NCBI GenBank assembly: GCA_903642295.1
Contig: CAHJWO010000003.1
Location: 1 to 48,683 of the forward strand
Source: PVC group bacterium
GTDB taxonomy: Bacteria; Verrucomicrobiota; Verrucomicrobiia; Chthoniobacterales; SZAS-18
DNA: 48,683 bases
Direction: 5' to 3'
Position 1 is the stretch's first letter, and each line of letters opens with the position of its first letter. Made by a program: the position numbers and the translations under genes. The notes under the pieces are model-generated. The model worked only from the letters and a program-made list of their open reading frames with translations. It made no database searches and was not told the DNA's origin. Below, piece after piece: positions 2-46,898 of this stretch.

Positions 2-313
2 GCCCCGACCATTGCGTATCTCCTCCACCTGCCCGCCCCCCCACCGATGGATGGCCGCATCCTCTCCGAAGCGCTCCAGACGCCCCCGGCCGTCGGCCGG
101 CCCGCCGCTGCTCCGCCCGTCACGGAGCGTTTGACCGCGGCGAAATCCCTCCACGGCTTCGACTGGCAGCAATACCTCCAAGTCACGCGTTACGAAGGCG
201 TGGAGTATTTTGACGAAGGAAACGCCGTCAACCCCGCCCCGGGGGATATGACAAAATCCTCCATCCCGGTGCCGGAACAGATCACCGCCGCAGGCGGTCC
301 GTCACCCAGGTAG
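2..313 (+). CDS. Alkaline phosphatase superfamily (phosphodiesterase/sulfatase-like) protein, C-terminal part
   Basis: The reading frame is open from the window edge, so this is the 3' end of a larger gene. The first residues visible, APTIAYLLHLP followed by PPPMDGRIL, match the conserved end of the catalytic domain in type I phosphodiesterases, nucleotide pyrophosphatases and related sulfatases, where the motif P-T-hydrophobic-LLG-P-x-MDGRVL lies near the C-terminus. About 75 residues follow, with no domain I recognise. The metal and nucleophile residues lie upstream of the window, so substrate cannot be stated. The TAG stop at 311-313 is part of a repeat element (AGG TAG GGA), so the last residues (PSPR) may be dictated by that repeat. 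The gene converges with mlaD. Confidence 0.7.
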   Translation, partial: APTIAYLLHLPAPPPMDGRILSEALQTPPAVGRPAAAPPVTERLTAAKSLHGFDWQQYLQVTRYEGVEYFDEGNAVNPAPGDMTKSSIPVPEQITAAGGPSPR

Positions 314-419
314 GGAGGGCTCTCCGAGCCCCGCCCCATTGGGCCTCCCGGCCCTTCTTTGGCGTCACGTCCCTTCGTCGCCAGCAGTCAGGGCAGACCT
401 CAGAGAGGCCTCCCTACCT
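308..419. repeat. AGGTAGGGA palindromic element between convergent genes
   Basis: The left end reads AGGTAGGGAGGGCTC and the right end GAGGCCTCCCTACCTT, so the ends are inverted repeats. Each end contains the stop codon of the gene running into it: TAG at 311-313 on the plus strand and TAG at 414-416 on the minus strand for mlaD. The interior holds a second GC-rich inverted section (GGGCCTCCCGGCCC). Relatives lie at 2337-2400, 9709-9795, 15268-15378, 40933-40963, 44683-44795 and 46062-46121. It could fold into a stem at the 3' end of either transcript, so a bidirectional terminator or RNA-stabilising role is plausible. That role is inference. Confidence 0.8.
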
Positions 420-2304: not shown

Positions 2305-2549
2305 AGATTGCCCACCATATCAGAGATTGTCCGCCGCCGCAGGCCTCTTCAAGGCAGGGAGGCCTCTCCGAGGCCTTCCCTCTCGGGCCGCAGGCCCTTC
2401 CCTCGTTCCCAAAGCTCCACCTTGGGAATGCACTTGTCCTGAAAGCGCCTCCTTCCCTTCAATCCCCTCTTCCTTTCCTCTCCGCGTTTCTCCTCCCTCT
2501 CTGCGTCTCCGCGTCAAAACTCCGCTCCATTCCTACCCACCCCGCCCCC
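2305..2549. other. mlaE-mlaF spacer filled with repeats
   Basis: No gene is seen in this 245-bp gap. At 2337-2400 lies a relative of the palindromic element, with gaggcctctccgaggcc and gggccgcaggccc inverted sections. At about 2475-2516 lies a tract related to CTCTGCGTCTCCGCGT, which recurs at 3851-3899 and, inverted, at 39433-39460. Because mlaE and mlaF belong to one system, the transcript probably runs through this spacer. Confidence 0.6.
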
Positions 2550-5987: not shown

Positions 5988-6081
5988 CCAGCCCCGGCAG
6001 GGGCGGCAGAGTTTAGCCCGGGGCGTAAGCCCCGGGGAAAAGCGCCATTCGCCCGAAGCCCCGGCAGGGGCGTAAGAAAAA
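5988..6081. repeat. CCCCGGCAGGGGCG repeats downstream of glnII
   Basis: AGCCCCGGCAGGGGCG occurs at about 5990 and again near 6057, separated by GCCCGGGGCGTAAGCCCCGGG, itself an inverted repeat. Both copies are followed by GTAAG- or GCAGA-type sequence. A second pair lies at 10876-10965, downstream of the esterase gene. Each copy is palindromic and could form a stem in the transcript of the upstream gene. Confidence 0.65.
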
Positions 6082-8831: not shown

Positions 8832-8844
8832 ATTTTCTCTCCAC

Positions 8845-8935
8845 CTGCATCCCATATCCTGCATCCCGCATCCTGCATCCTGCCTCCTGCCTCCTGCCTC
8901 CTGCCTCCTGCCTCCCGCATCCTGCATCCTGCATC
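8845..8935. repeat. Inverted heptamer array of 13 units before tauE
   Basis: Thirteen units read ctgcatc, ccatatc, ctgcatc, ccgcatc, ctgcatc, five ctgcctc, ccgcatc and two ctgcatc. They are the reverse complement of the GGATGCN family and face the array at 8742-8797. TTTTT follows at once (8936-8940), so the long stem plus T run resembles an intrinsic terminator for the PP2C transcript. It ends 11 bp before the proposed tauE start. Confidence 0.85.
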
Positions 8936-8946
8936 TTTTTCCCGTT

Positions 8947-9714
8947 GTGCTGCAGCTTCTCCTTCTCTGCGGTTTTGCCTTCCTGGCCGGGTTCATCGAC
9001 TCGGTGGTGGGCGGCGGTGGGTTGATCCAGCTGCCCGCGCTCCTGTTGATCCTGCCTTCCTCGCTGCCCTTTGCCACCGTGTCGGGCACGAACAAAAGCG
9101 TCGGTTTTACCGGGACGCTCTCGGCGGCGGGGAACTACGCGCGGCACGTCCGCATCGAGTGGCGCGTGGCGCTGCCCGGCGCGGCGATGGGCTTCGTGTT
9201 TTCCGCCCTGGGTTCGAGGACGGTCAGCCACCTCGATCCGGCGTTGCTGCGTCCGATGGTGCTGGGGATGCTCGTCGCCGTGGCGATCTATACCTTCGCG
9301 CGCAAGGATTTCGGATCGTTGCACGCGCCGAAGTTGAACCACCGCCAACAGTTCTGGATCGGTGCGTTGGCCGGAGCCGTGCTCGGCTTTTACGACGGGT
9401 TCTTCGGGCCGGGCACGGGCAGCTTTTTGATCTTCATCTTTATCGGCGTGTGCGGGTTCGACTTCCTGTCGGCCTCGGCGGCGGCCAAGGTCATCAATTC
9501 GGCGACCAACCTCGCTTCGGTGATCTACTTCGCGGCGACCGGGCACATCCTCTACCACCTCGCGGTGCCGATGGCCGCGTGCAACGTGCTGGGATCCTTC
9601 GCCGGCACGCGCCTGGCGATCCTGCGCGGCAGCCGGTTCGTGCGAATCTTGTTCCTGATTGTGGTGAGCGCCATCATCTGCAAGCTCGCCTACGACATGG
9701 CGCACCCCAGGTAG
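8947..9714 (+). CDS. TauE/SafE-family sulfite/anion exporter permease
   Basis: Inner-membrane protein of 255 residues with about eight hydrophobic segments. The family marks are FLAGFIDSVVGGGGLIQLPALL near the N-terminus and, in the second half, FYDGFFGPGTGSFLIF, the internal repeat of the family. Members export sulfite, sulfoacetate or other organosulfonates, or are of unknown substrate. The start is uncertain: the frame stays open upstream through the heptamer array, and the GTG at 8947 gives the normal family start (VLQLLLLCGFAFLAGF). The TAG stop at 9712-9714 lies in a repeat element. No sulfur-metabolism gene is adjacent, so the substrate cannot be inferred. Confidence 0.85.
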   Translation: MLQLLLLCGFAFLAGFIDSVVGGGGLIQLPALLLILPSSLPFATVSGTNKSVGFTGTLSAAGNYARHVRIEWRVALPGAAMGFVFSALGSRTVSHLDPALLRPMVLGMLVAVAIYTFARKDFGSLHAPKLNHRQQFWIGALAGAVLGFYDGFFGPGTGSFLIFIFIGVCGFDFLSASAAAKVINSATNLASVIYFAATGHILYHLAVPMAACNVLGSFAGTRLAILRGSRFVRILFLIVVSAIICKLAYDMAHPR

Positions 9715-9795
9715 GGACGGCGCTCCGCCGCCGTCCCTGACTGTCTGGTCGAATCCATCCAAGGTAGGGATGGCTCTCCGAGCCCTTCCCTGGAC
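9709..9795. repeat. Two tandem AGGTAGGGA elements after tauE
   Basis: AGGTAGGGACGGCGCTCCGC with its inverted partner CCGCCGTCCCT lies at 9709-9730 and starts with the tauE stop codon. A second copy, AGGTAGGGATGGCTCTCCGA with CCCTTCCCTGG, lies at 9763-9795. Both fold into GC-rich hairpins. They are followed by a different inverted repeat at 9796-9934. Confidence 0.75.
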
Positions 9796-10828: not shown

Positions 10829-11096
10829 ACGTTGAGGGTGAAATGGCTGGCGTAACCGATGGCGGACCCGTCTTCAGCCCCGGCAGGGGCGACAGACCTC
10901 AGTCCACGGCGTCAGCCGTGGGAATCATCGCCCCACGCGGATAGCCCCGGCAGGGGCGTAAGAAAACTCGCTGTCCCGACCGATCCAGGCGCACTGCTTC
11001 CTCGCGCTCCTGCCGCGGCTAAAGAAGTAGATAATTCGCCTGGATCTCAGACCAAAGATAAACCCCGACCACCACGAAAAGGCCAATTCTTCGCTT
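10829..11096. repeat. Esterase-rdgB gap with CCCCGGCAGGGGCG repeats
   Basis: No gene is seen. AGCCCCGGCAGGGGCG occurs near 10876 and again near 10943, separated by ccacggcgtcagccgtgg, an inverted repeat of its own. The layout copies that at 5988-6081: a palindromic unit, an inner palindrome, then the unit again followed by GTAAGAAAA. It lies between the convergent esterase and rdgB genes. Confidence 0.65.
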
Positions 11097-11843: not shown

Positions 11844-11916
11844 GACAACCACCGCGCCCGGTGCATATTGTTCCCGACATTCCTGATACTCCGTGTTATA
11901 AACCCAGCCCCCTCCG

Positions 11917-11965
11917 ACTTCCCCCTCCCCACTTCCGCGTTCCGACTTCCCCCTTCCCACTTTGA
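11917..11965. repeat. Seven-unit heptamer block upstream of leuS
   Basis: Seven 7-nt units: acttccc, cctcccc, acttccg, cgttccg, acttccc, ccttccc and actttga. They lie 36 bp before the leuS start codon. The block belongs to the same family and has the same orientation relative to the gene as the blocks before ispF and cysS, so it would be transcribed as a C/U-rich leader. Confidence 0.75.
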
Positions 11966-14688: not shown

Positions 14689-15273
14689 ATGAAGAACGTC
14701 CGCTTTATCCTCGGGGCTGGATCGGTGCTGGCAGCGGTATTCGTACTGGGAGGTTGCGGCAAGCCAGCCGCCCCCCCGCCGACCGTCGAGGCCAAGGCGA
14801 CGCCCAGTCCGACGCCGTTGACTTCGCTGCTCGACGGAAAGGATCTCGACAGCGGCAAACTCCGCGCCAAGGCCAACAAAGCGGCAGATTCCATCGGCAA
14901 ATACCTGGAAACGCAGGATCCGAAGCTGCGGGAAAAATTTCAGCAGTTGAGCAACAAGGTCGCGGGCCGTTTCGGACAGGACAAGGATCATTGGCGCGAA
15001 AAGCTGGAAGCGAAACGCCACGAACTGGAACCGCAAATCGAGAAACTCAAGGCGCAGTTGGCGAAAGAGGGCGGCCAGACCAAAGACAAGCTGCGGGAGG
15101 AACTTTCCGAATTGGAGACCAGGAACGACACCACGGAACAGAAGCTTTCCAAGCTCGAAGTCATCGGCGCGGACGCCTGGAAAAAGTTCAAGGCGCAGTT
15201 GAAGGATGACGAGGCCCGGGAGCGGACCCCACCGGTGGATTCGCCGGACCCGAGTCCGGCCCCCTCCAGGTAG
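14689..15273 (+). CDS. Coiled-coil lipoprotein, unknown function
   Basis: Small lipoprotein of 194 residues. It begins MKNVRFILGAGSVLAAVFVLGGCGK, with a lipobox LGGC whose Cys24 would be acylated, followed by a Pro-rich linker. The rest (about 60-180) is charged and almost purely helical, with heptad-like patterns such as LREELSELETRNDTTEQKL, so a coiled coil in the periplasm is likely. I do not recognise a family. It starts 21 bp after leuS and may be cotranscribed. The ATG is preceded by GGCACCCCC. The TAG stop at 15271-15273 is supplied by a repeat element and the last residues are PSR. Confidence 0.7.
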   Translation: MKNVRFILGAGSVLAAVFVLGGCGKPAAPPPTVEAKATPSPTPLTSLLDGKDLDSGKLRAKANKAADSIGKYLETQDPKLREKFQQLSNKVAGRFGQDKDHWREKLEAKRHELEPQIEKLKAQLAKEGGQTKDKLREELSELETRNDTTEQKLSKLEVIGADAWKKFKAQLKDDEARERTPPVDSPDPSPAPSR

Positions 15274-15378
15274 GGAGGGGGTCCGAGGCCTGCCCTATCG
15301 CAGACGGCGACCCTTTTGGCGCGGCAGCCAGAAGGGCCTGCGGCCCAATGGGGACGGCCTCGGAGGCTTCCCTACCTT
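15268..15378. repeat. AGGTAGGGA palindromic element between convergent genes
   Basis: This 111-bp copy starts AGGTAGGGAGGGGGTCCGAG, inside which is the lipoprotein stop codon, and ends CTCGGAGGCTTCCCTACCTT. The pdeM-like gene running the other way stops with TGA at 15384-15386, 6 nt past the element. The centre has GGGCCTGCGGCCC followed by AATGGGGACGG, nearly identical to the copy at 46062-46121. Confidence 0.8.
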
Positions 15379-15383
15379 TACAC

Positions 15384-16067
15384 TCAGCCTTGCTTCGGCA
15401 GCGGCGGCAGCACCCGCTTCGGGCTGCACAACCATTGCCGCACGCCGCGCCCGAACTTGCCGCTGCCGCCCGCCGCCCACGGCGAAAACGCCGGCAGCAC
15501 CCACCGGTCGGCGGTCGCCACGAAAGCGGGGAGCTTGAGCGCCAGGCCCGCACCGTCGCGCAACATGCCCGCCGGATGGTGGTGACCGACGACCTCGCGC
15601 CTGCCGTCGGCTTCCGCCGGGGTCAAGCCGTCACCGTGGTGGAAGCAGAAGCGATTCGTCGTCCAGCACGGGTGCATCTCTTCCGCCGAAAATGCGCGGC
15701 GGTCGTGGTTGCCCGCAACCAGGATGACTTCGGTGTGCTCGCGCAGGGTCGCCAGCAGCCGCAAAGCCGCCGGTCGCGCCGCCCGGTCATGGACGAAATC
15801 GCCCGCGATCACGAGTTGCGCGGGCCGGTAATCCGTCAATAATTCCAGCAGGCGCGCCTCGACCGAATCCATGCCCCACAATGGGAACAGTGCGCCCGAC
15901 GCCCGCTGGCTCAGTTCGTACCCGAAATGCACGTCCGCCACCGCCAGCCAGCGTTCCACGCGATGGAAGAGGGCGAGACGAGCGTCGAGGATCGTGTCGG
16001 GATCGACCAGGACGCGGGTCGGGCCGAGCGGGGGAATGGTTGGCGGGGCGGTCGTCTGCGGGTTCAT
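15384..16067 (-). CDS. PdeM-like calcineurin-type phosphoesterase
   Basis: Metal-dependent phosphoesterase of 227 residues. The two-metal motifs are all present: ADVHFGYE (D-x-H), GDFVHD, GNHDRR and GHHHP. The layout matches the small PdeM/COG1407 group, sometimes called ligase-associated DNA damage response endonuclease. Its usual partners (Lhr-like helicase, ligase, exonuclease) are absent. Here it overlaps the end of a MOSC-domain gene by 4 bp (ATGA), so the two are translated together. Whether it acts on DNA or another phosphodiester is not known from the sequence. Confidence 0.82.
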   Translation of the reverse strand: MNPQTTAPPTIPPLGPTRVLVDPDTILDARLALFHRVERWLAVADVHFGYELSQRASGALFPLWGMDSVEARLLELLTDYRPAQLVIAGDFVHDRAARPAALRLLATLREHTEVILVAGNHDRRAFSAEEMHPCWTTNRFCFHHGDGLTPAEADGRREVVGHHHPAGMLRDGAGLALKLPAFVATADRWVLPAFSPWAAGGSGKFGRGVRQWLCSPKRVLPPLPKQG

Positions 16068-16540: not shown

Positions 16541-16583
16541 CAGGAAACGTAGGGAGTCGCGGGCGTAAAGTCCAGTGCGGGGA

Positions 16584-16701
16584 AGGATGCGGGATGCGGG
16601 ATGCGGGATGCAGAGGATGCAGAGGATGCAGAGGATGCAGGATGCAGGATGCAGGATGCAGGATGCAGGATGCAGGATGCAGGATGCGGGACGCGGGATG
16701 C
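16584..16701. repeat. GGATGCN array with a 9-nt variant, MOSC-fdhD gap
   Basis: About 15 units: one aggatgc, three gggatgc, three agaggatgc (9 nt), seven aggatgc, then gggacgc and gggatgc. It fills the space between the divergent MOSC and fdhD genes. All frames through it stay open and give MQDAGCR- or ASCILHP-type strings, so neighbouring genes are easily mis-extended through it. The rest of the gap (16702-16829) shows no recognised promoter. Confidence 0.85.
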
Positions 16702-16829
16702 GGGATAGTGCGGTTGGAGGTGAGCGAATGCTCGGCAGCCGTTTGCGTTGTTCCGGGCGATACTTTAATCTCGAACAGGTCGCTGGAATTGCGCTCGGCT
16801 TTTCAACGTCATCGATCCCCCCACGGTTT

Positions 16830-25605: not shown

Positions 25606-28600
25606 TCACCCTTTCGTCCCCTGAAGCACTTTCCGCAAGAACGGCGCGATCCGGCTAACCTTGTGACGCGACACCTGCTCGGGCGTGCCGGTGGCCACGA
25701 GTTTGCCGCCCATATCACCCGCTTCCGGGCCGATGTCCACGACATAATCCGCCTCGGCGATGACGCTCAGATGATGCTCGATGACGACCACCGTGTTTCC
25801 CTCGTCCACCAACCGGTGCAGCACCTTGAGCAACTGTTCCACGTCCGCCATGTGCAGGCCCACGGTCGGCTCCTCCAACAGATACAGCGTCGATTTCGTC
25901 GCGCGCATTTTCCGCAGTTTCGCGTGCTGCGCGTTGCCGACGCCACGCGTTAACTCCGTGACCAGCTTCATGCGTTGGGCCTCGCCGCCGCTTAATGTCG
26001 GGCTGGGCTGACCCAGTTTTAGGTAACCCAATCCCGTCTGCGTCAGGAGTGATAATGGACGGTGGATCTTGCTCACCGCCGCGAAAAATTCCGCCGCCTG
26101 TTCGATGGTCAGGTTGAGCACCTGCCCGATGCTCTTGTCGTTGTAGAGCACTTCCAGGGTCTGGGCATTGTACCGCAGTCCGCCGCAATCTTCGCAAGGC
26201 ACGTAGCTCGTCGGCAGGAAACTCATCTCGTGCTTGATGACGCCCTGACCCATGCAGCTTTCGCAACGCCCGCCCTCGTTGTTGAACGAAAACCGGCTGG
26301 AGCTATAGCCCCGGATGCGCGCGAGCGGCAACTGCGCGAACAACGCGCGAATCTCGTCCAGCACCCCCACGTAGGTCGCCGGGGTCGAGCGCGAGGTTTT
26401 GCCGATGGGCGATTGGTCCACCTCGTACACCGCCTCCAAATGCTCGACGCCGGTAAACGCCTTCCAGTCCTGCGCTTTCTTTTTCGCCCCCTTCGCCTCC
26501 TCCTTGGCACGCTTGCTGGGTTTGACCTTGGCGAGCGCCAGTTGTGCGGCGGGCAGCAGCACGCTGCGCATCAGGGTGCTCTTGCCGGAACCGCTGATCC
26601 CCGTGATGACCGTCAATCGGCCCACCGGAAAGCGCACGTTCACGTCCTGCAAATTGTTCGCCGTCGCTCCTTCCAAACCGAGCCACCCCCCGGTCGTTTT
26701 CTTCCCCTCGACGACCCGCCGCGAGCCGTTCATCGGATGTTTGATCGGTGTCTCCAGACACCGGCCCGTCACCGACATCGGATTCGCCATGATCTCCGGC
26801 AATGTCCCTTGCGCGACGACCTCGCCGCCGTGCACTCCCGGCCCGGGTCCGAGGTCCACGATATAGTCCGCGCGCCGCATCGTCTCGTCGTCGTGCTCCA
26901 CGATGATCAACGAGTTCCCCTTGCTGCGCAGCGCCTCCAACGTATCCAGCAACCGGTCGTTGTCACGCGGATGCAACCCGATGGTGGGCTCGTCCAGCAC
27001 ATACAACACGCCGCGCAGATTAGACCCCAATTGCGCCGAAAGCCGGATGCGCTGCGTTTCGCCGCCGCTCAGCGTCTTGGCCGAACGATCCAGCGCGAGG
27101 TAGTCCAGCCCCACCTCCTCCATGAACGTCAGGCGCTGCCGGATTTCGTCGAGAATATCCTGCGCAATCGTCGCCTGCGTTCCTTTGAACTTGAACTTGT
27201 TGGCCGCCGCCAACGCTTTGGAAACCGACATCGCCGCCAACGCATCAATACTCAAATCGCGCACCCGCACCGCGCGCGCCGTCGGGTTGAGCCGCCCGCC
27301 GTGGCAGTCAGGACACATTCGGGTATCTTCGTCATCCAGCCACGCCGTCGCCCGTTCCACGGCCAATTCCTGTTCCGCGGCCGACGCGCTGTCGTCTTCT
27401 TTGACGAGGCTCCCCTTCCACACCACGCCGAACCCCCGGCACTCCGGGCACCACCCGTGCGGCGAATTGTACGAGAACAGGCGCGGGTCCAATTCTTCAA
27501 ATGCCGTCCCACATTCGGGACAGCTCATCTCCGTGCTCAGCACGACGGATTTTCCCTTCGCATCCACGAACCGCGCCGTCCCTTTCCCGATCTCCAGCGC
27601 GCGCTTCACGATGTCGCGCGGATCATCGGTCGTGGCGGCGTTTTTCAGCGCCCGCCCTTTGGCCTTTTCCGGCGTCTTCGCCACGGGTTTCTTTTTTACC
27701 CCGCCGACCTCGCCCACCACCACGTCAATGGTGTGTTCGCGGAACCGTTCCAGCCGCTCGAACCCGAACGCCGAGACGAACTTCCCGTCCACCAGCAATT
27801 CCTCGAACCCATGTTTGACCGCCCACGCGGCGACTTCCGTATGGAACCCCTTGCGCGCCTTGATAAGCGGCGCCAGCACGCGCACTCGACCCTTTTTCGC
27901 GGCGTCCTCCACCTGTTTGACGATGGCCGCCTGGCTCTGCTTCTCCACCGGGACGTTGCAATGCGGACAATACTGGGTCCCAAGCTTGGCATAGAGCAGC
28001 CGCAGGAAATGGTAAACCTCCGTCACGGTGGCCACGGTCGATTTTCCGCCGCCGCGCGTCACGCGTTGCTCGATGGCCACGCTCGGCGGCAGCCCTTCGA
28101 TCAAGTCCACATCCGGCTTCTCCAACTGCTCCACGAACTGCCGCGCATACGGCGACATGCTGTCCAGAAACCGCCGCTGTCCCTCCGCAAACAAAATGTC
28201 GAACGCCAGGGTCGATTTCCCCGAACCGCTCAACCCCGTGACGATCACCATCTGGCCACGCGGCAGATCCAGTGAAAGATTCTTCAAATTGTGCTCGCGC
28301 GCCCCGCGCACCCGGATCGACGGCGCGACCTTTACCTTCCCGTTGCGATGACCGTTTCGCCCTTCCCGCGTCGGCATCTCCGTCGAATGAATTTCGGAGT
28401 CCTGACGATAACCGTCGCCGTACAGATTTGCCGCTTCTTCAACCGCCACGCCGTCCAGCGCGATGACTTTTTCGTCCCGTCCGCCTCGCAGCAGCGGGCG
28501 CAGGTAATGCCCGGTATGCGACGCGTCCACCTTGGCCACCTCCTCCGGTGTGCCCACCGCGACGACCAACCCACCGCCCGTACCCGCTTCCGGGCCAATG

Positions 28601-31434
28601 TCCACGAGATAATCGGCGCACTTGATCACTTCCAAATTGTGTTCGATCACCAGCAGGCTGTCGCCCTGCTCCACCAACCGTTGGAACACGCGCACCAGCA
28701 GCGCCACATCGTCAAAGTGCAGCCCGGTCGTGGGTTCGTCGAAGATTAACAACGCCCCTTTTTCTCCGGGGTTTTTCTCCCGCTCGACCAGATGCCCGAC
28801 GAGCTTCAACCGTTGCGCCTCGCCGCCCGAAAGCGTGTTGAGCGGCTGACCCAGCCGCACATAACCTAAACCGACATCGCACAAAATCTTCAACGCGGCC
28901 AGCGGCACCTTCAGGTTGTTCGGAAGCCCCTTCAGCCCGTGCCGCGACTCCAGGAACGTCACCGAATCGTCCACGGTCATTTCGAGGACCTCGTGGATGT
29001 TCTTGCCGTGGTAACGCACTTTCAAGACGTGTGGCTGGAACCGCTTGCCCTCACACTCCGAGCAACGCACGTACAGGTCGCTCAGGAACTGCATCTCGAT
29101 TTTCTCGAACCCGATGCCTCCGCAACGTTCGCAGCGCCCGTCGCCCGTGTTGAACGAGAATGAACCCGCCGACAATCCCGCCGCGCGCGCCTCGTCGCAC
29201 GTGGCGAACAGCTCGCGCACGGCATCGAACACACCCAGATACACGACCGGGCTGGATCGCGGCGTCTTGGCCAGCGGCGTCTGGTCCACCATGACGACCG
29301 TGCCGACGTGGTGTCCGCCGGTGATCTCGTCGCAACGACCTGCGGCCTCGTCGCTGCTGCCCCCGCGCTGCCGCAATAAATTTTGATAGACGACATCGTG
29401 AATCAGCGTGCTCTTGCCCGAACCACTGACCCCCGTGATGCACGCGAACACGCCCAGCGGCAGATCCACGTCCACCTTCTGCAAGTTGTGCTCGCGGGCG
29501 CCGCGCACCTTCAGCCATTTCTCCACGCTCCGCCGCCGCGCGGGCAGCGGGATACGCTTGCGTCCGGTGAGGTAATCCGCCGTCAGCGAATCGGCGCAAC
29601 TGCCCAGCCGGTTCAGTGGTCCCGAGAATACCAGTTCGCCGCCGCCTTCTCCGCGCCCGGGTCCGATGTCGATGAGATTATCCGCCGCGCGAATGATCGC
29701 TTCCTCGTGCTCCACGACGAGCAGTGTGTTTCCCTTGTCGCGCAGATCCTCCATCACGCGGATCAACCGTCCCACGTCGCGCGGGTGCAGCCCCACGCTC
29801 GGCTCGTCCAGCACGAACAGCGTGTTCACCAGCGACGCCCCCAGGCAGGTCGTCAGGTTCACCCGTTCGATCTCCCCGCCCGACAGCGTCCGCGTCGCCC
29901 GATCCAGGTTCAGATAGCCCAACCCCACCGCGAGCAAGTATCGCAGCCGCGTCACGATTTCCTTGTGCAGCATCTCCGCGCTGGAATCGTTCGCCGGCAT
30001 CACCAGTGACGCCATCACCGGTTCCATCTCGGTCACGGGCAACTGCGCCAATTCCGGCAGGTTAAAACCCGGCAGCAGCGAATATCGCTTGGTGGCCGGG
30101 GTCCATTCCGCGCCCGGCACCAGCCGGTAATTCAGCGTCGCCGGTTGGAACCGCCCGCCGTCGCAGTCGGGGCAGGTCGTGTAAGCACGGTAGCGGCTCA
30201 GCAGCACGCGCACATGCATCTTGTACGTCTTGGTTTCCAGCCAGTCGAAGTACCCCTTCACGCCGTACCACCCGCCGCTCTGCCAAAGTTCCTCGTTGTC
30301 CGAGCGGCCCCCGCCCTCGCCTTGAATCACAAACTTCTGGTCCGCCTTGGGCAGGTCCTCGAACGGTTTGTGGATGTCCACTTCCTGTCGGGCGCACGCC
30401 CGCAATAAATCCCGCTGGCAATCCGCTGATTGCCCGCTCTGGAACGGCTTCACCACGCCCCGCGCGATGGACAGCCGCCGATCCGGCAGCGCCCGGTCGA
30501 GGTCGATGCCGACCGTTCGCCCGAAACCCCGGCACTTCGGGCACGCCCCCACCGGATTATTGAACGAGAACAGCCCCGGCGTCGGGGGCTTGATGTCGAG
30601 GTCGCATTTTGGGCAGTGCCAGCCCGTGGAAAAACATTCTTCCTGCCCGTTACTTGGGTCAATGAACCGGATGCGCCCCTTGCCGAACCGCAACGCCGTT
30701 TCGATGGACTCCGTCAGCCGCGAGCGCGTTTCCGGCCCCACCGTCGCCCGGTCCTGGATGACGTGGACCCGCAGCGGCAGTTTCTTCAAGCTCTCGGGCG
30801 GCTCGTCCGTCCGCAGCACCTCGCCGCCCACCCACACGCGCAAATAACCTTGCGCTTGCAGGAACGCGAAAAACTCCGCCGGGTCCGCGCCCACCGGCGC
30901 GGGCACCGCAAACGTCACGAGCAGCGCGACCCCGGCCTTCCGCGCCAGAATTTGCTCGGCGATCCCGCGCGGCGAATCCGGCTTGATCGGCCCGTGGCAC
31001 GACGGGCAAAACGCCTGGCAAACCCGTGGCATCAGCAGCTTCAGGTAGTCATTGACCTCCGTGATCGTCCCGACCGTCGAACGCGTGCTCTTGACCTGGT
31101 TGGATTGCTCGATGGCGATGGCCGGCGGAATCCCGGTGATGCGGTCCACCTTGGGCTTATCCATCCGGTCCAGGAACTGCCGCGTGTACGGCGAAAACGT
31201 CTCGACGTAGCGCCGTTGTCCCTCGGCGTAGATCGTGTCGAACGCGAGCGAACTCTTGCCGCTGCCACTCGGCCCCGTGATGACGTTGAGCTGCCCCAGG
31301 GGCAGGTCCAAATCAATTCCTTTGAGATTGTTCTGGCGTGCGCCGCGAATCTCCACCACCTCGCACGGCGGCTCGGTTTCCGGGGTGGGAGAAACTTCGG
31401 TTCGTGAGTCCTTTTTGGAGCGGGCAATCGACAC
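25606..31434 (-). CDS. uvrA: Double-length excinuclease ABC subunit A
   Basis: Damage-sensing ATPase of nucleotide excision repair. At 1942 residues it is twice the usual length (about 940): two complete UvrA units are fused in one chain. Walker A motifs lie at about residues 54, 666, 1065 and 1611, each G-x-SGSGKS, so all four ATPase sites look intact. Each half has its own zinc motifs, for example CPSCHGPIKP and CPKCRGFG in the first, and CPHCNVPV and CPECRGFG in the second. LSGGE signatures occur in each. The join near residue 1020-1055 is a polar linker. Double UvrA is known from Chlamydiae, which supports a PVC origin. The start is GTG. Confidence 0.96.
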   Translation of the reverse strand: MSIARSKKDSRTEVSPTPETEPPCEVVEIRGARQNNLKGIDLDLPLGQLNVITGPSGSGKSSLAFDTIYAEGQRRYVETFSPYTRQFLDRMDKPKVDRITGIPPAIAIEQSNQVKSTRSTVGTITEVNDYLKLLMPRVCQAFCPSCHGPIKPDSPRGIAEQILARKAGVALLVTFAVPAPVGADPAEFFAFLQAQGYLRVWVGGEVLRTDEPPESLKKLPLRVHVIQDRATVGPETRSRLTESIETALRFGKGRIRFIDPSNGQEECFSTGWHCPKCDLDIKPPTPGLFSFNNPVGACPKCRGFGRTVGIDLDRALPDRRLSIARGVVKPFQSGQSADCQRDLLRACARQEVDIHKPFEDLPKADQKFVIQGEGGGRSDNEELWQSGGWYGVKGYFDWLETKTYKMHVRVLLSRYRAYTTCPDCDGGRFQPATLNYRLVPGAEWTPATKRYSLLPGFNLPELAQLPVTEMEPVMASLVMPANDSSAEMLHKEIVTRLRYLLAVGLGYLNLDRATRTLSGGEIERVNLTTCLGASLVNTLFVLDEPSVGLHPRDVGRLIRVMEDLRDKGNTLLVVEHEEAIIRAADNLIDIGPGRGEGGGELVFSGPLNRLGSCADSLTADYLTGRKRIPLPARRRSVEKWLKVRGAREHNLQKVDVDLPLGVFACITGVSGSGKSTLIHDVVYQNLLRQRGGSSDEAAGRCDEITGGHHVGTVVMVDQTPLAKTPRSSPVVYLGVFDAVRELFATCDEARAAGLSAGSFSFNTGDGRCERCGGIGFEKIEMQFLSDLYVRCSECEGKRFQPHVLKVRYHGKNIHEVLEMTVDDSVTFLESRHGLKGLPNNLKVPLAALKILCDVGLGYVRLGQPLNTLSGGEAQRLKLVGHLVEREKNPGEKGALLIFDEPTTGLHFDDVALLVRVFQRLVEQGDSLLVIEHNLEVIKCADYLVDIGPEAGTGGGLVVAVGTPEEVAKVDASHTGHYLRPLLRGGRDEKVIALDGVAVEEAANLYGDGYRQDSEIHSTEMPTREGRNGHRNGKVKVAPSIRVRGAREHNLKNLSLDLPRGQMVIVTGLSGSGKSTLAFDILFAEGQRRFLDSMSPYARQFVEQLEKPDVDLIEGLPPSVAIEQRVTRGGGKSTVATVTEVYHFLRLLYAKLGTQYCPHCNVPVEKQSQAAIVKQVEDAAKKGRVRVLAPLIKARKGFHTEVAAWAVKHGFEELLVDGKFVSAFGFERLERFREHTIDVVVGEVGGVKKKPVAKTPEKAKGRALKNAATTDDPRDIVKRALEIGKGTARFVDAKGKSVVLSTEMSCPECGTAFEELDPRLFSYNSPHGWCPECRGFGVVWKGSLVKEDDSASAAEQELAVERATAWLDDEDTRMCPDCHGGRLNPTARAVRVRDLSIDALAAMSVSKALAAANKFKFKGTQATIAQDILDEIRQRLTFMEEVGLDYLALDRSAKTLSGGETQRIRLSAQLGSNLRGVLYVLDEPTIGLHPRDNDRLLDTLEALRSKGNSLIIVEHDDETMRRADYIVDLGPGPGVHGGEVVAQGTLPEIMANPMSVTGRCLETPIKHPMNGSRRVVEGKKTTGGWLGLEGATANNLQDVNVRFPVGRLTVITGISGSGKSTLMRSVLLPAAQLALAKVKPSKRAKEEAKGAKKKAQDWKAFTGVEHLEAVYEVDQSPIGKTSRSTPATYVGVLDEIRALFAQLPLARIRGYSSSRFSFNNEGGRCESCMGQGVIKHEMSFLPTSYVPCEDCGGLRYNAQTLEVLYNDKSIGQVLNLTIEQAAEFFAAVSKIHRPLSLLTQTGLGYLKLGQPSPTLSGGEAQRMKLVTELTRGVGNAQHAKLRKMRATKSTLYLLEEPTVGLHMADVEQLLKVLHRLVDEGNTVVVIEHHLSVIAEADYVVDIGPEAGDMGGKLVATGTPEQVSRHKVSRIAPFLRKVLQGTKG

Positions 31435-38600: not shown

Positions 38601-39161
38601 ATGGAAAGCCGGGCGAAATCAGTGGTGTTGGGCGTGACCGGTTCGATTGCAGCGTACAAGGCGGCGGACATCGCCAGCCGGTTGACCAAGCTCGAACGGG
38701 AGGTGCAGGTCGTGATGACGAGAGAAGCCCGCGAATTCATCACGCCGCTGACGTTGCAGGTGTTGTCGAAGCGGCCCGTGGTGAGTGACCTGTTCGATGA
38801 AAAGGAAGGGTGGCAGCCGGGGCACATCGAGTTGGCGGATCGCGCGGATTTATTGCTCATCGCGCCCGCGACCGCGCAGATCGTGGCGGAGCTGGCGCAT
38901 GGGTTCGCCAGCCATGCGCTGGCAGCGATTGCGCTGGCGACACGCGCGCCCATTTTGCTGGCGCCCGCGATGAACGGCAAGATGTGGCTGCATCCGGCGA
39001 CATTGGAAAACGTGGAGGTCTTGAAGCGGCGGGGCGTGAAATTTATCGGGCCGGAGGAGGGGTTGCTCGCGTGCGGGTATGAGGGCGTCGGGCGGTTGTG
39101 GCCGGTGGACGGGATCGTGGAGGCGGCGGAGGGGATGTTGGCGGAGAAGGATGAAGGATGA
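38601..39161 (+). CDS. coaC: Phosphopantothenoylcysteine decarboxylase (separate CoaC)
   Basis: Flavin-dependent decarboxylase of coenzyme A synthesis, making 4'-phosphopantetheine. The protein of 186 residues opens VVLGVTGSIAAYKAADIASRL. The catalytic His is in QPGHIELADRADLLLIAPATA, FMN-site sequence is LAPAMNGKMW, and the substrate clamp is EGLLACGYEGVGRL. In most bacteria this is the N-terminal half of a fused CoaBC. Here the frame ends EKDEG within the first units of a heptamer array (stop TGA from aggatga), and the CoaB half starts 581 bp later as its own gene. Confidence 0.93.
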   Translation: MESRAKSVVLGVTGSIAAYKAADIASRLTKLEREVQVVMTREAREFITPLTLQVLSKRPVVSDLFDEKEGWQPGHIELADRADLLLIAPATAQIVAELAHGFASHALAAIALATRAPILLAPAMNGKMWLHPATLENVEVLKRRGVKFIGPEEGLLACGYEGVGRLWPVDGIVEAAEGMLAEKDEG

Positions 39162-39392
39162 AGGATGAAGGATGAAGGATGCGGGATGCGGGATGCTGGA
39201 TGCTGGATGCGGGATGCGGGATGCAGGATGCAGGATGCGGGATGCAGGATGCTGGATGCAGGATGCAGGATGCTGGATGCTGGATGCGGGATGCGGGATG
39301 CTGGATGCGGGATGCGGGATGCAGGATGCAGGATGCAGGATGCAGGATGCAGGATGCAGGATGCGGGATGCAGGATGCTGGATGCTGGATGC
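39148..39392. repeat. 35-unit GGATGCN heptamer array between coaC and coaB
   Basis: Exactly 35 units of 7 nt (245 bp). The first four are aggatga, and all later ones are NGGATGC with N = A, G or T, never C. The core GGATGC is invariant. The array overlaps the last four codons and stop of coaC. All three forward frames stay open in the GGATGC part and would read DAGCRMQ-type peptides. It has no spacers, so it is not a CRISPR array. No inverted partner is seen nearby, unlike the array at 8742-8935. Confidence 0.9.
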
Positions 39393-39742
39393 GGAGGCGA
39401 AGGAATGCAGGTTCGTTGAAGAGACGATTTTTTAACGCGGAGACGCGGAGAGAGAAGAGACTCGTGGAGGAAGGGAAGAAGAGGGTGAGGGTGATAAACC
39501 AGGCCGATCGTGAAGGGTGAACAGGTGCCTTTGGAAGAGGTTTGGCTTCGCCGGTCTCATGGTCTCCCGCGGCGGTCGCGGAAAATACGGTCGTCGTGCT
39601 TGAAAGAAGTTTGGCTTCGCCTGTCCCATTGCCTCGGTTTTCGACTGCGTTCGTTCCTCATTCCGTGCAAGAGTTTTGACGCGACACCGTTCGCCGCAGG
39701 AAAATGTTGGCGGCGGTCTGCAATGTGTGGCTCGTAACTCCC
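39393..39742. other. coaC-coaB gap after the heptamer array
   Basis: No gene is seen. taacgcggagacgcggagagagaag (39433-39457) is the inverted form of the CTCTGCGTCTCCGCGTTAAA tract at 3851-3899. gaagaggtttggcttcgcc near 39534 recurs as gaagtttggcttcgcc near 39606. TTCGACTGCGTTCGTTCCTC at 39641 is a partial copy of the repeat at 37693. No promoter for coaB is recognised. Confidence 0.55.
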
Positions 39743-40812: not shown

Positions 40813-41062
40813 GGAGATAGGATGCGGGAGGATGTGGGCGGCGAGGTGTGGGATCGCTATGGCCGACCCGTGGGATTTAGAGCGGATTGCAATGGGATCT
40901 GCGGGCGGCGAGGCCCACGGTTGCCAGATAGTCAGGGACGGCTGGGACAGCCGTCCCTACCTTACATGGGCACGAGCCGCTCCACGGCAAAGGCTGACTC
41001 GAACGATATTCGCGCTTGCAACTCGCACGCGACGGCACGCGGTTTTTGCGTCAGGTTTCGAC
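40813..41062. other. Gap before the inositol monophosphatase gene
   Basis: An open frame runs in from about 40811, but its residues show no family features. At 40933-40963 lies a short copy of the palindromic element: GGGACGGCT and AGCCGTCCC are perfect 9-bp arms around GGGAC, followed by TACCTT. No clear promoter for the next gene was recognised. Confidence 0.55.
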
Positions 41063-41833: not shown

Positions 41834-41929
41834 CGAAGTAGAAGGAAGTCGGAATTGATAATTCGATGCTCGCGGCAAAGAGAACGTAAGCGCCTTTACT
41901 TCCGACTTCCCACTTCCGACTTTTCTTTT
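41834..41929. repeat. Inverted heptamer blocks between the IMPase gene and ispF
   Basis: Beginning at the IMPase stop codon, gaagtagaaggaagtcggaa (41835-41854) gives the forward form. The inverted block acttccg, acttccc, acttccg, acttttc (41898-41925) ends 4 nt before the ispF ATG. About 40 bp separate them. Transcribed, the two sides could pair and close the region just before ispF. Confidence 0.75.
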
Positions 41930-42466
41930 ATGGCTACCACCGTTCTCTCGGGCATCGGGTATGATGTACACGCATTCGCGGAAGGCCGTCCGCTGGTTTT
42001 GGGCGGCATCGAAATTCCGCACGCCAAGGGCCTGGCCGGGCATTCGGATGCGGACGTGTTGATCCATGCGATTGCCGATGCGTTGCTGGGGACCGTCGGC
42101 GAGGCGGACATCGGACACCATTTTCCGAACACCGATGAGTCGATCCGCGGGATTCGGTCCACGGAGATTTTGACGCGCGTGGTCGAGATCCTCGCGGGGA
42201 AAGAAGCGCGGATTGTGAACGTCGATGCCACGTTGATCGCCGAGGCGCCGAAGATTGCGCCGCATCTTGCGAAAATGCGCGCCAGCCTGGCCGCGTGCCT
42301 GCGGCTGCCGGTGACGCGCGTGAGCGTGAAGGCCACGACCAACGAAGGTTTGGGGTTCGTCGGACGCGGAGAAGGAATCGCCGCGATGGCGGTGGCGAGC
42401 GTCGCGGTAATCGAGGAAATGCTCGATCCCGAAACCGCGCCGCCCGCGCCGGTGCCGGGACTTTAA
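41930..42466 (+). CDS. ispF: 2-C-methyl-D-erythritol 2,4-cyclodiphosphate synthase
   Basis: Fifth enzyme of the MEP (non-mevalonate) isoprenoid pathway. The protein of 178 residues has GIGYDVHAFAEGRPLVLGG (zinc ligands Asp and His), LAGHSDADVLIHAIADALLG, DIGHHFPNTD and TTNEGLGFVGRGEGIAA, all family hallmarks. The ATG at 41930 follows a pyrimidine run (TTTTCTTTT) that is the end of a heptamer block, not a Shine-Dalgarno sequence. cysS follows after a repeat-filled 123 bp. The pair ispF-cysS is also seen in other bacteria. Confidence 0.97.
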   Translation: MATTVLSGIGYDVHAFAEGRPLVLGGIEIPHAKGLAGHSDADVLIHAIADALLGTVGEADIGHHFPNTDESIRGIRSTEILTRVVEILAGKEARIVNVDATLIAEAPKIAPHLAKMRASLAACLRLPVTRVSVKATTNEGLGFVGRGEGIAAMAVASVAVIEEMLDPETAPPAPVPGL

Positions 42467-42589
42467 GGAAATGGGAAGGCGGAAGGTGGAGGGCGGAAGT
42501 TTTGAAGAACTGATTTGCTTGCTGTGGCTGTCTTGGTCAATTTGGTTGTCTGACTTCCGCGTTCCGATTTCCCACTTTCGACTTTCTGC
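42467..42589. repeat. Mirror-image heptamer blocks filling the ispF-cysS gap
   Basis: Five forward units (ggaaatg, ggaaggc, ggaaggt, ggagggc, ggaagtt) run from 42467, the base after the ispF stop codon, to 42501. Five inverted units (acttccg, cgttccg, atttccc, actttcg, actttct) run from 42553 to 42587, 2 nt before the cysS ATG. The 51-bp middle is unique sequence. The gap is thus 35 + 51 + 35 + 2 bp. The arms can pair only imperfectly. Confidence 0.85.
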
Positions 42590-43993: not shown

Positions 43994-44682
43994 GCACGCT
44001 TACTTTCCCGGCACAGGAGTTTCTCGATTTGTCACACACGAATCATCGGATGCTGTTCGAGAACACGGCGAACGTGTGGGAGGCCATCGGCAAGATCGCG
44101 GGGTATTTGCAGTTTAGTTTGCGTCCGGCGATCTTGGGGGAACTGGTGGGGAAGCCGTACATCGGGCCGGACGTGTTCGTGGGCGAAGGCACCATCATCG
44201 AGCACGGCGCGATGATCAAAGGCCCGGCGTGGATCGGCGCGAATTGCCACGTGCGCAACGGATGTTACGTGCGGGAAAACGTGATCGTGGGGGACGACGC
44301 GGTGTTGGGAAATTCGTGCGAATTCAAAAACTGCGTGTTGTTCGACGGCGCACAGGTGCCGCACTTCAATTACGTGGGAGATTCTGTTTTGGGTTATAAA
44401 AGCCACCTGGGCGCGGGCGCGATCCTTTCCAACGTGAAGCTGGACCACGGAGAAATCGCCGTGGAGACGGAGGACGGCGGGCGGGTGCCGAGCGGATTGC
44501 GAAAGTTCGGCGCGGTGCTCGGGGATTTTGCGGAGGTGGGTTGCAACGCGGTGCTGAATCCGGGGTCGATCATTGGCCGGCGGTCGGTGGTGTACCCGGG
44601 CGCACAATGGCGCGGGGTGCTCCCGGCGAACAGCATCGCCAAATTCCGGCAGAGTTTCAGCGTGCTGGCACGGAGGGATTAG
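43990..44682 (+). CDS. Left-handed beta-helix (GlmU C-terminal-like) acyltransferase-type protein
   Basis: A 230-residue protein dominated by hexapeptide repeats of the left-handed beta-helix: IGPDVFVGEGTIIEHGAMIKGPAWIGANCHVRNG, then VIVGDDAVLGNSCEFKNCVL and YVGDSVLGYKSHLGAGAILSNVKLD. The last phrase resembles the acetyltransferase half of GlmU (FVGDSxLGxxxxxGAGxxxxNxK). The nucleotidyltransferase half of GlmU is absent. Such proteins are often labelled UDP-N-acetylglucosamine diphosphorylase or sugar nucleotidyltransferase-like; the acceptor is unknown. It is coupled to cysS by a GTGA overlap, and a repeat element begins at the stop. Confidence 0.75.
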   Translation: MSTLTFPAQEFLDLSHTNHRMLFENTANVWEAIGKIAGYLQFSLRPAILGELVGKPYIGPDVFVGEGTIIEHGAMIKGPAWIGANCHVRNGCYVRENVIVGDDAVLGNSCEFKNCVLFDGAQVPHFNYVGDSVLGYKSHLGAGAILSNVKLDHGEIAVETEDGGRVPSGLRKFGAVLGDFAEVGCNAVLNPGSIIGRRSVVYPGAQWRGVLPANSIAKFRQSFSVLARRD

Positions 44683-44795
44683 GAGGTAAGGACGCTGGGA
44701 CAGCCGTCCCGTTAGTTCTGATTTGGGAGGCGCTTGGGCAATGGGTGACGCGTATTCCGGACATCGACGGACGGCTGGGACAACCGTCCCTACCT
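44683..44795. repeat. AGGTAGGGA-type element between convergent genes
   Basis: The left part is aggtaaggacgctgggacag followed by ccgtccc, directly after the beta-helix gene stop. The right part is ggacggctgggacaaccg followed by tccctacctt. The rodA stop codon (TAG on the minus strand, 44790-44792) lies inside the right end. This is the third convergent gene pair in the window with this element between the stops. Confidence 0.8.
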
Positions 44796-45905
44796 TAATG
44801 TCTTGCGGTGAATCCACACGCTTTGCACGATGCCCAGCGCGAACATGATGATCATCACGAACGTACCGCCGTAAGAGATGATCGGCAGGGGCAGGCCGGC
44901 GATGGGCGTGAGTGAAACCGTCATGCCCGCGTTCATGTAGATGTGCGTGAACAGCAGGCCGGTGACGCCGATGCAAAGCATCAGGCCGAGTTGATCTTTT
45001 GCCTGGTAGGCGATGTAGAGGATGGTCACGAGGAGCGCGGCGAAGATGCACAGCAACAGCAGCGCACCGCGGAATCCGTAGGCCTCGCCGATGACCGAAA
45101 AAATGAAGTCGGTGTGGGCGATGCTCTTGGGCAGCAGGTCCTGCTCGACCAGCGTGCCGTGCGCCTTGAAGCCTTTGCCGCGCAAGCCGCCGGAGCCGAT
45201 GGCCGTCATGGATTGGGTGATCGTCCAGCCTGCGCCGAGCGGGTCGGCATCGGGATTGAGGAAGGTCGTGAGGCGCTTGAACTGGAAGTCCTTGAGCATG
45301 TGCGCCGCGATGGGCAGGATCGAAATCACCGACAGGATAATTGCCAGCAGATAGCGGATCGGGATGCCGCCGACGAAGAGCATCGCCAGCATGACGGGTC
45401 CCCAGACGATGACGCCGCCCAACTGCGGCTGCGCCGCCACCAAGAGACACGGCGGCCCGGCGATGAGCCCGCACAGCAGCAGCTTGAGCATCGGATGGAG
45501 CCGCCGGTATTCGCTCAACAGCACGGCGATGATCATGATGCCGCCCAGGATGGCGAGCTGCGAGGGTTGCAGGCTGAAACTGCTGCCGAATTCGATCCAG
45601 CTTTTCGCGCCGTAGTGGGTCTTGCCGATGAACTTGCAGAGGACGAGGAGGGCCACGCCCATGATGTACATGGGCAGACCGCCCCATTTGATCCACCGGT
45701 AATCCGTGAGGCTGACCGCCACGAAAACGACCATGCTGGCGGCGATGTAAATGGTTTGCTTGCGCGCCGATTGCGCGAGGTACGAGGTTGATTCCCGCAT
45801 GAACGTCGCGGAATAAATCGCCAGCACGCTGCACGCGCAGAGCGTCAACATGAGCGCCAGCAGCACCCAGTTGAAGCGGAAGAGTTTTTGGAGATAGGGG
45901 TTCAC
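44790..45905 (-). CDS. rodA: Rod shape-determining SEDS protein RodA
   Basis: SEDS peptidoglycan glycosyltransferase that builds the side wall in rod-shaped cells with PBP2. The protein of 371 residues has about ten membrane segments. Conserved runs include FGSSFSLQPSQLAILGGIMIIAVLLS, LVAAQPQLGGVIVWGPVMLAMLFVGG, SGGLRGKGFKAHGT, LPKSIAHTDFIFSVIGEAYGF with the catalytic Asp, and the closing GLPLPIISYGGT. The start is GTG. mreB, mreC, mreD and the partner PBP2 are not in the window. The stop is in a repeat element and the protein ends KTLR. Confidence 0.95.
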   Translation of the reverse strand: MNPYLQKLFRFNWVLLALMLTLCACSVLAIYSATFMRESTSYLAQSARKQTIYIAASMVVFVAVSLTDYRWIKWGGLPMYIMGVALLVLCKFIGKTHYGAKSWIEFGSSFSLQPSQLAILGGIMIIAVLLSEYRRLHPMLKLLLCGLIAGPPCLLVAAQPQLGGVIVWGPVMLAMLFVGGIPIRYLLAIILSVISILPIAAHMLKDFQFKRLTTFLNPDADPLGAGWTITQSMTAIGSGGLRGKGFKAHGTLVEQDLLPKSIAHTDFIFSVIGEAYGFRGALLLLCIFAALLVTILYIAYQAKDQLGLMLCIGVTGLLFTHIYMNAGMTVSLTPIAGLPLPIISYGGTFVMIIMFALGIVQSVWIHRKTLR

Positions 45906-46121
45906 AGGCGAAAGGTGTGCTCGGAGCGCGGGAAGAGAGCGCGCAATTTAGCGGAGGATCGGGAAAGCCGCAACGTCGGGGGTTTGGTAGCGGACGAGCG
46001 GGGGCAGGAAATGGCGGCGGGGCGATGGAGGCCAGCGGCGCCGGGAGGTCGCCATCCACCTGCCAGAGAACCAGAGGGGCCTGCGGCCCGATGGGGACGG
46101 CTGGGACAGCCGTCAGGACCT
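45906..46121. other. rodA-ABC ATPase gap with a repeat element
   Basis: At 46062-46121 is a copy of the palindromic element: gggcctgcggcccgatgggg then acggctgggacagccgt and caggacctt. Its end directly touches the TGA stop (46122-46124) of the minus-strand ATPase gene. It closely resembles the centre of the copy at 15268-15378. The remaining 150 bp show nothing recognisable. Confidence 0.6.
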
Positions 46122-46898
46122 TCACGTGGCGGCGGCGAGGAGCCTTTTGGTGTAGTCGTGCTGCGGGTCGCGGTAGATGCTTTCCGCCGGAGCGGCCTCC
46201 ACGATCTTGCCGTGGTACATGACGAGCACCTGATCGCTGATGTGCTCGACCACGGCAAGATCGTGCGCGATGAAGAGATACGTGAGGCCAAGTTGTTCCT
46301 GAAGGTCTTGCAGCAGGTTGACGATTTGCGCCTGCACGCTGACATCCAGCGCACTGACGGGTTCGTCGCACACGATGAAACGAGGCCGGGCCGCGAGGGC
46401 GCGCGCGATGCCGATCCGTTGGCGTTGGCCCCCGCTGAACTCGTGGGGGTAACGGGTTGCTGCCTCGCGCGGCAAGCCGACCTGATCGAGCAGTTCCACC
46501 ACGCGGGCACGGCGGTCGGCCCGGGACAGGTCGCGGCAGTGGATTTCCAGCGGCTCGGCGAGAATGGATTCCACGCGCTGACGCGGGTTCAGCGAGTTGA
46601 ACGGGTCCTGGAAAATCATCTGGATTTCCCGCCGCAGCGGGCGAAACTCGCGTTCCGGCAGCCCGAGGATTTCCCGACCCGCAAACTCCACCTTGCCGTT
46701 GAGGCGGGCGGTGGGCGGAGTCAGTTTGAGCAGCGCACGTCCGATGGTGGTTTTGCCGCTGCCGCTCTCGCCGACCAACCCGACGGTGGTCCCTTCCTCC
46801 ACGGTGAAGCTGACGTCGTCCACCGCCTGAATTGCGCTGGTTGGGGTCGGGAAGGCAACGCATAAACCAGCCACCTTTAGTAGTGCTGTCAGTCCCAT
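46122..46898 (-). CDS. Oligopeptide/dipeptide-type ABC transporter ATP-binding protein (OppF/DppF-like)
   Basis: ATPase of 258 residues. Walker A is [14 protein letters not shown], the signature is [15 protein letters not shown] and Walker B is [19 protein letters not shown]. The Q-loop region [16 protein letters not shown] and the end [29 protein letters not shown] are specific to the OppF/DppF peptide-uptake group. Permease, binding-protein and OppD genes would be expected alongside but are not seen in the window. AGGAGAG lies 7 nt before the ATG at 46898. It may work with permeases encoded elsewhere. Confidence 0.92.

Follow-up and report, generated by a model that had tools for sequence, protein, structure and literature searches.

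Genes of a Verrucomicrobiota genome stop on the first bases of a GTAG-tagged REP element

How does a repeated element come to provide the stop codons of several genes? The question is raised by a stretch of 48,683 nucleotides from a PVC group bacterium (Verrucomicrobiota, Chthoniobacterales; hereafter "the window"), in which a short palindromic element lies at gene 3' ends. A preliminary description of this DNA left two possibilities: either insertion is aimed at stop codons, or copies that bring both a stop and a 3' hairpin are retained by selection. We therefore characterized the element, its position relative to stop codons in the rest of the genome and the stops used by orthologous genes.

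The palindromic element of the window is a GTAG-tagged REP, made of the tag AGGTAG followed by a GC-rich hairpin and often arranged in head-to-head dimers (Table 1). The sequence AGGTAGGGA is found exactly at 308+, 411-, 9709+, 9762+, 15268+, 15369-, 40954- and 44787-, and the copies with one mismatch include 2352+ and 44684+. With up to one mismatch, the window holds 14 sites for 3.6 expected, a number reached in 0 of 100 shuffles. Stops were placed by gene calling on codon usage, with training on this same genome and no information on the repeat. This calling returned the five genes previously described as stopping on the TAG of AGG-TAG-GGA, all of them ending in AGG-TAG and therefore with Arg as the last residue of the protein. 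The first of these genes had been called phosphatase-like, and no Pfam match was obtained for its 103 aa within the window. Two further copies had been said to touch or nearly touch a stop, which is also what we observed: the hexapeptide beta-helix gene stops 1 base away from its copy and the OppF-like gene directly abuts the other. At the second dimer (15268-15377), the right TAG lies 12 nt from the stop (15384-15386) of the convergent metallophosphoesterase gene. Two points of the earlier account have to be amended. The inverted ends attributed to the element do exist as head-to-head dimers, but the copies at 9709 and 9762 form a direct pair and those at 40954 and 46121 are single. In the list of copies, the one near 2337 is real but has its tag at 2352; the copy that we place at 46121 carries a different tag (AGGTCCTGA).

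Table 1. REP copies of the window and the stop codons associated with them
Feature	Position	Strand	Remarks
Head-to-head REP dimer, 112 bp	308..419		Both outer AGGTAGGGA tags supply stops; MFE -67.9 kcal/mol, z -6.2
TAG stop of gene 2-313	311..313	+	From the left REP tag of the 308..419 dimer
TAG stop of mlaD (414-1460, PF02470)	414..416	-	From the right REP tag
REP singleton, tag AGGCAGGGA	2352..2380	+	No same-strand gene end close by
REP	9709..9738	+	TAG 9712-9714 is the stop of tauE (8947-9714, PF01925)
Second REP, direct orientation	9762..9790	+	53 nt downstream of the 9709 copy
Head-to-head REP dimer	15268..15377		Left TAG 15271-15273 (+) is the stop of gene 14689-15273 (lipoprotein of the preliminary description)
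REP singleton AGGTAGGGACGGCTGTCCCAGCCGTCC	40936..40962	-	
Head-to-head REP dimer	44684..44795		Between the convergent hexapeptide gene (stop 44680-44682) and rodA; left tag mutated to AGGTAAGGA
TAG stop of rodA (44790-45905, PF01098)	44790..44792	-	From the right REP tag
REP, variant tag AGGTCCTGA	46095..46121	-	Abuts the TGA stop 46122-46124 of the OppF-like ATPase gene

Each REP unit comprises the tag (A)AGGTAG and then a stem-loop with a hairpin of about 8 bp, i.e. the GTAG beside a short palindrome (20-50 nt) by which GTAG REPs are recognized. Two main kinds of stem-loop were found, GTAG-GGACGGCT-GTCCC-AGCCGTCC and GTAG-GGAGGCCT-CTCCG-AGGCC. The upstream edge is sharp, conservation ending at (A)AGGTAG in the logo of the copies. 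The variant tag AGGTCCTGA (e.g. 46113-46121 in the window, or locus L153) reads AGG-TCC-TGA in the same frame, which is again a stop. An Rfam search with the element gave no matching family. In copies remote from any stop, a small hairpin (e.g. CCGCCGCAGGCGG + TCGTNNCCA) often stands just before the REP tag, and a pre-tag hairpin of this type, at 280-307 in the window, encodes the last residues of gene 2-313.

The strict pattern AGGTAGGGANNNCTSTCC has 111 exact copies in the whole genome versus 0 for the reversed pattern, and AGGTAGGGA has 162 versus 31 for its reversed-pattern control. In place of the covariance model that had been suggested for a genome-wide search, we used an nhmmer profile with a reversed-sequence control, which confirmed the excess: 121 copies were detected in 2.34 Mb of the genome (about half of it) and 0 in the reversed sequence. 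The placement of copies relative to genes covers these 2.34 Mb, and it is based on 123 copies, i.e. the 121 profile matches plus the window copies 15268 and 15369 added by hand. Copy number is thus high and location mostly intergenic, 5 of the 123 copies being inside called genes. Twenty-four BIME-like head-to-head dimers (outward-facing, most of them 99-135 bp long) were identified. A second GTAG family of the same genome (GTAGCCACGGCA) has too few copies to be used as a replicate.

The window also carries other repeats. An Acido-Lenti-1 RNA, another dispersed repeat (RF01687, 49.5 bits), is located at 5990-6036 (-), with a second copy of 76% identity at 10875-10971. Degenerate 7-bp units (GGATGCG/GGATGCA and complement) form long arrays at positions 8844-8935, 16577-16757 and 39100-39434, and degenerate ACTTCCGACTTCCCACTT heptamer-like repeats recur at 1503-1535, 11903-11963, 41884-41930 and 42553-42585. 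Among the genes, that at 25606-31359 (-) encodes a double-length UvrA of 1917 aa; full-length UvrA models align with its first 957 residues, and ABC ATPase matches extend to the end.

To describe the position of the copies, we used the distance d from the T of a gene's stop to the T of the tag's TAG, counting same-strand stops within 300 nt. Such a stop is present for 83 heads: d=0 in 15 of them, 4-5 in 11, 6-14 in 23, 15-60 in 21 and farther in 11, while the gene reads through the copy in 2. For 40 of the 123 copies, there is no same-strand stop within 300 nt. Both d=0 (p=1e-12) and d=5 (p=3e-7) form spikes compared with the local rate; d=5 concerns ten heads, in which a TGA or TAA stop shares its final A with the AGG of the tag. 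A total of 33 genes have a copy 4-14 nt beyond their stop. By type of gap, the counts are 47 for convergent gaps (55 kb), 56 for tandem gaps (188 kb) and 3 for divergent gaps (70 kb), which reflects a preference for the first two. If insertion near gene ends were blind to the frame, copies that are read through should outnumber those with d=0 by two to one. An in-frame AGG-TAG stop was observed for 15 of the 123 copies versus 2 read through (p=4e-6 against one third, over 2.34 Mb). Conversely, 14 of the 18 AGG-TAG gene ends counted from the list for the stretch read are REPs, some of them degenerate, and this list also shows degenerate d=0 copies missed by the profile. The bias to the AGG-TAG frame and to gene ends first noticed in the window is therefore present across half of the genome: copies cluster at gene 3' ends, and about one copy in eight provides a gene with its stop through the first bases of the REP, the frame being almost always AGG-TAG.

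We then considered the orthologues of the 15 genes with d=0, whose loci were obtained from two congeners, G001 and G002, in one multiplex search. Nineteen orthologues without a REP at that stop were usable, and counts were read from the output. They stop on TGA in 15 cases and on TAG in 4, the latter corresponding to the background rate. This comparison with empty sites, which had been proposed as a way to see the ancestral stop, indicates that TAG is not ancestral there and that the TAG found here came from the REP, with the polarity being assumed, as G001 and G002 could have lost a REP. At four sites, the end of the protein is unchanged relative to the orthologues (rodA, dnaA and the genes at C15, minus strand, and C99), while in others it is displaced, by a few residues at least. 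The change is best seen at rodA. In G001, only 6 nt separate the TGA of this gene from that of the convergent hexapeptide gene; the present genome has a 112-bp dimer at that place, and both proteins have the same length. REPs also occur at some of the sites in G002. There, the orthologue of the C23 gene takes an in-frame stop from a REP with the tag AGG-TCC-TGA, and the counterpart of the first gene of the window has as its stop the in-frame TAG of a REP of its own, at another position. The orthologue of the C99 gene ends in CGG-TGA and is followed by a REP after about 27 nt, which may be an intermediate toward a later loss of the spacer.

The last residue of these orthologues is frequently Arg. 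Terminal Arg was found in 12 of the 19 REP-free orthologues, versus a background of 10-12% (12% of the genome's own genes; 6 of 60 among the remaining genes of the orthologue loci). To allow for the dependence between orthologues of one gene, the excess was evaluated per gene (p about 0.001-0.003), in a post hoc test of modest size on 13 genes with partly dependent orthologues. By comparison, among own genes followed by a REP at 4-14 nt, terminal Arg occurs in 4 of 33, which is the background rate. The in-frame class therefore appears enriched for genes that already ended in Arg followed by a stop.

The REP is probably spread by a cognate RAYT (Y1/HUH transposase). A RAYT gene flanked on both sides by inverted copies of the same REP, the arrangement of a REPtron, was found in both congeners (L178 in G001, L190 in G002) and in one GTDB contig from an uncultured Verrucomicrobium (L191), which is probably G001 or a close relative. 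The three RAYTs are IS200-like, with a Y1_Tnp domain and the HUH motif LMPDHxHM. In the bacterium's own assembly (92% complete), no RAYT flanked by the main REP was found; the nearest one (C15:29054-29515, 153 aa) is 47% identical to the L190 RAYT and is flanked by another inverted repeat. The long inverted repeats around it (G000:C15:28970-29580) contain GGTGGATGGCGACCTCCGG, a motif that is also located downstream of several main-family REPs. Another RAYT of the same genome (L003 1315-1980, G000:C255) lies between dimers of a second GTAG REP family (GTAGCCACGGCACTCCGTTGCCGTGTC), of which few copies occur in the half-genome read. In other Verrucomicrobia MAGs, RAYT relatives adjoin hairpins whose tag is identical or very similar and whose stems differ.

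Near-random RAYT-driven insertion combined with selection is the probable explanation of these observations, in-frame copies surviving mostly where AGG-TAG rebuilds an Arg-stop ending. Insertion would be near-random with respect to stops, and the copies falling in coding sequence, in promoters or in the two read-through frames would be purged. Those in the AGG-TAG frame, in or near the last codon, would survive, since the protein would end almost at its old place, most easily if the gene already had an Arg-stop ending. The bias of the in-frame class to prior Arg endings fits such a filter acting on the outcome. Of the two possibilities initially raised, selection for copies supplying a stop and a hairpin is thus the one supported, by the frame bias (15 vs. 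2), the abutment of stops and the avoidance of divergent gaps. The retained hairpin might act as the 3' end of the mRNA, and of both mRNAs when a dimer lies between convergent genes. We also propose, as a tentative extension, that the AGG-TAG head of the REP could be a mimic of Arg-stop: the mobile repeat would overwrite the gene end, converting Arg-TGA into Arg-TAG plus a 3' hairpin with the protein unchanged. If so, the REP would alter stop-codon identity genome-wide and occupy gene ends harmlessly.

Convergent gaps that hold a dimer are remarkably tight. Once the dimer is subtracted, these gaps have a median of 2 nt (11 cases) versus 97 nt in REP-less convergent gaps (p=2e-4), a tighter fit than plain random insertion would produce. 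As random insertion alone would favour long gaps, selection for a shared 3' hairpin, loss of the spacer or a local preference is also needed. Under the second of these, the REP would insert tens of bases downstream of the gene, and a deletion between short matches, xGG-T in the gene's last codons and AGG-T in the tag, would then remove the old stop and the spacer and fuse the gene with AGG-TAG. The filling of convergent gaps by dimers and the Arg excess among orthologues would both be expected from such deletions, as would the C99 gene, which has d=0 here and the same end residue as its G002 orthologue. However, the terminal Arg codons of the orthologues are CGC, CGT and CGG rather than mainly xGG, the 6-nt gap beside rodA in G001 holds no REP remnant, and a single intermediate was seen. 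Although we consider spacer collapse rather unlikely, it may act jointly with near-random insertion and selection, and some d=0 junctions may have formed later, once the spacer separating the old stop from a nearby REP was lost.

RAYT-directed insertion, in which the transposase or the REP guide (GTAG) would recognize a stop-proximal sequence so that copies land by target choice, is much less credible. IS200/IS605 elements choose the tetranucleotide beside the element. The spikes at d=0 and d=5 and the occupation of very short convergent gaps by dimers would agree with target choice, and the endings CGG-TGA or CGG-TAG present at the sites orthologous to those of dnaA and the C99 gene resemble AGGTAG. 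Nevertheless, TAG is no more frequent than the background among the orthologue stops, by which a pre-existing GTAG stop was rejected as the target. The logo shows no conserved bases 5' of the tag, by which a longer conserved target upstream was rejected too. Moreover, 32 of the 83 heads are 15-300 nt from the stop, the copies without a same-strand stop are numerous and the Arg excess is absent at d=4-14. Insertion targeted to stop codons is therefore not supported.

It is very improbable that the repeat is an immobile host bidirectional terminator or 3' mRNA stabiliser overlapping stops as a by-product of compaction, since, despite its 3'-end location and strong hairpins, the listed hairpins lack a U-run, RAYT genes lie between inverted copies and copies differ between congeners at orthologous genes. 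A plain intrinsic terminator was likewise set aside as unlikely, on the grounds of hairpins without U-runs: CCTGACTGTC, CCATTGGGCC or similar sequences follow the listed hairpins instead. A terminator scan of one region remained near its shuffle level.

This genome provides a measured case in which a non-autonomous mobile repeat supplies stops to ordinary and essential-looking genes (dnaA-like, rodA, mlaD), with another stop at the orthologous sites. The Arg bias is a testable point on how REPs settle at gene ends. Gene callers and comparisons of C-termini should expect REP-derived ends.

The supply of stops by GTAG REPs is already known. Di Nocera et al. 2013 (PMC3733652), in the passages considered here, define the GTAG REP superfamily, report it from Verrucomicrobia including Opitutus terrae, and describe that GTAG REP termini often give a TAG stop to flanking ORFs. 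The present element resembles the families of these passages by its GTAG tag followed by a short stem-loop, its head-to-head dimers and its location in convergent and tandem gaps near 3' ends; it differs from them by new stems and loops and by a tag extended to (A)AGGTAGGGA. Beyond these passages, the present analysis adds the test of the reading frame, the stops of the orthologues and the bias to Arg. With a HUH RAYT gene between inverted GTAG REPs, the loci of the congeners are similar to the REP/RAYT (TnpAREP) REPtrons of E. coli, Stenotrophomonas and Marinomonas (PMC2817692, PMC8266576), and in TnpAREP the GTAG has a role in recognition and in the choice of the cleavage site (PMC8266576). 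Unlike those REPtrons, this one belongs to a Verrucomicrobiota family known here from sequence data, in which the RAYT with the exact REP is carried by congeners and not by the assembly itself. The RAYT loci of Opitutae and other Verrucomicrobia MAGs (L193-L196) present GTAG hairpins with AGGTAGGG or a closely similar tag, but their stems differ (e.g. AAGGTAGGGTCAGCACTGCGTGCTGACC). Finally, Rickettsia palindromic elements, as cited in the passages of PMC3733652, are located inside genes and read through. In both cases palindromic repeats are incorporated into coding sequence, but the REP described here ends the gene.
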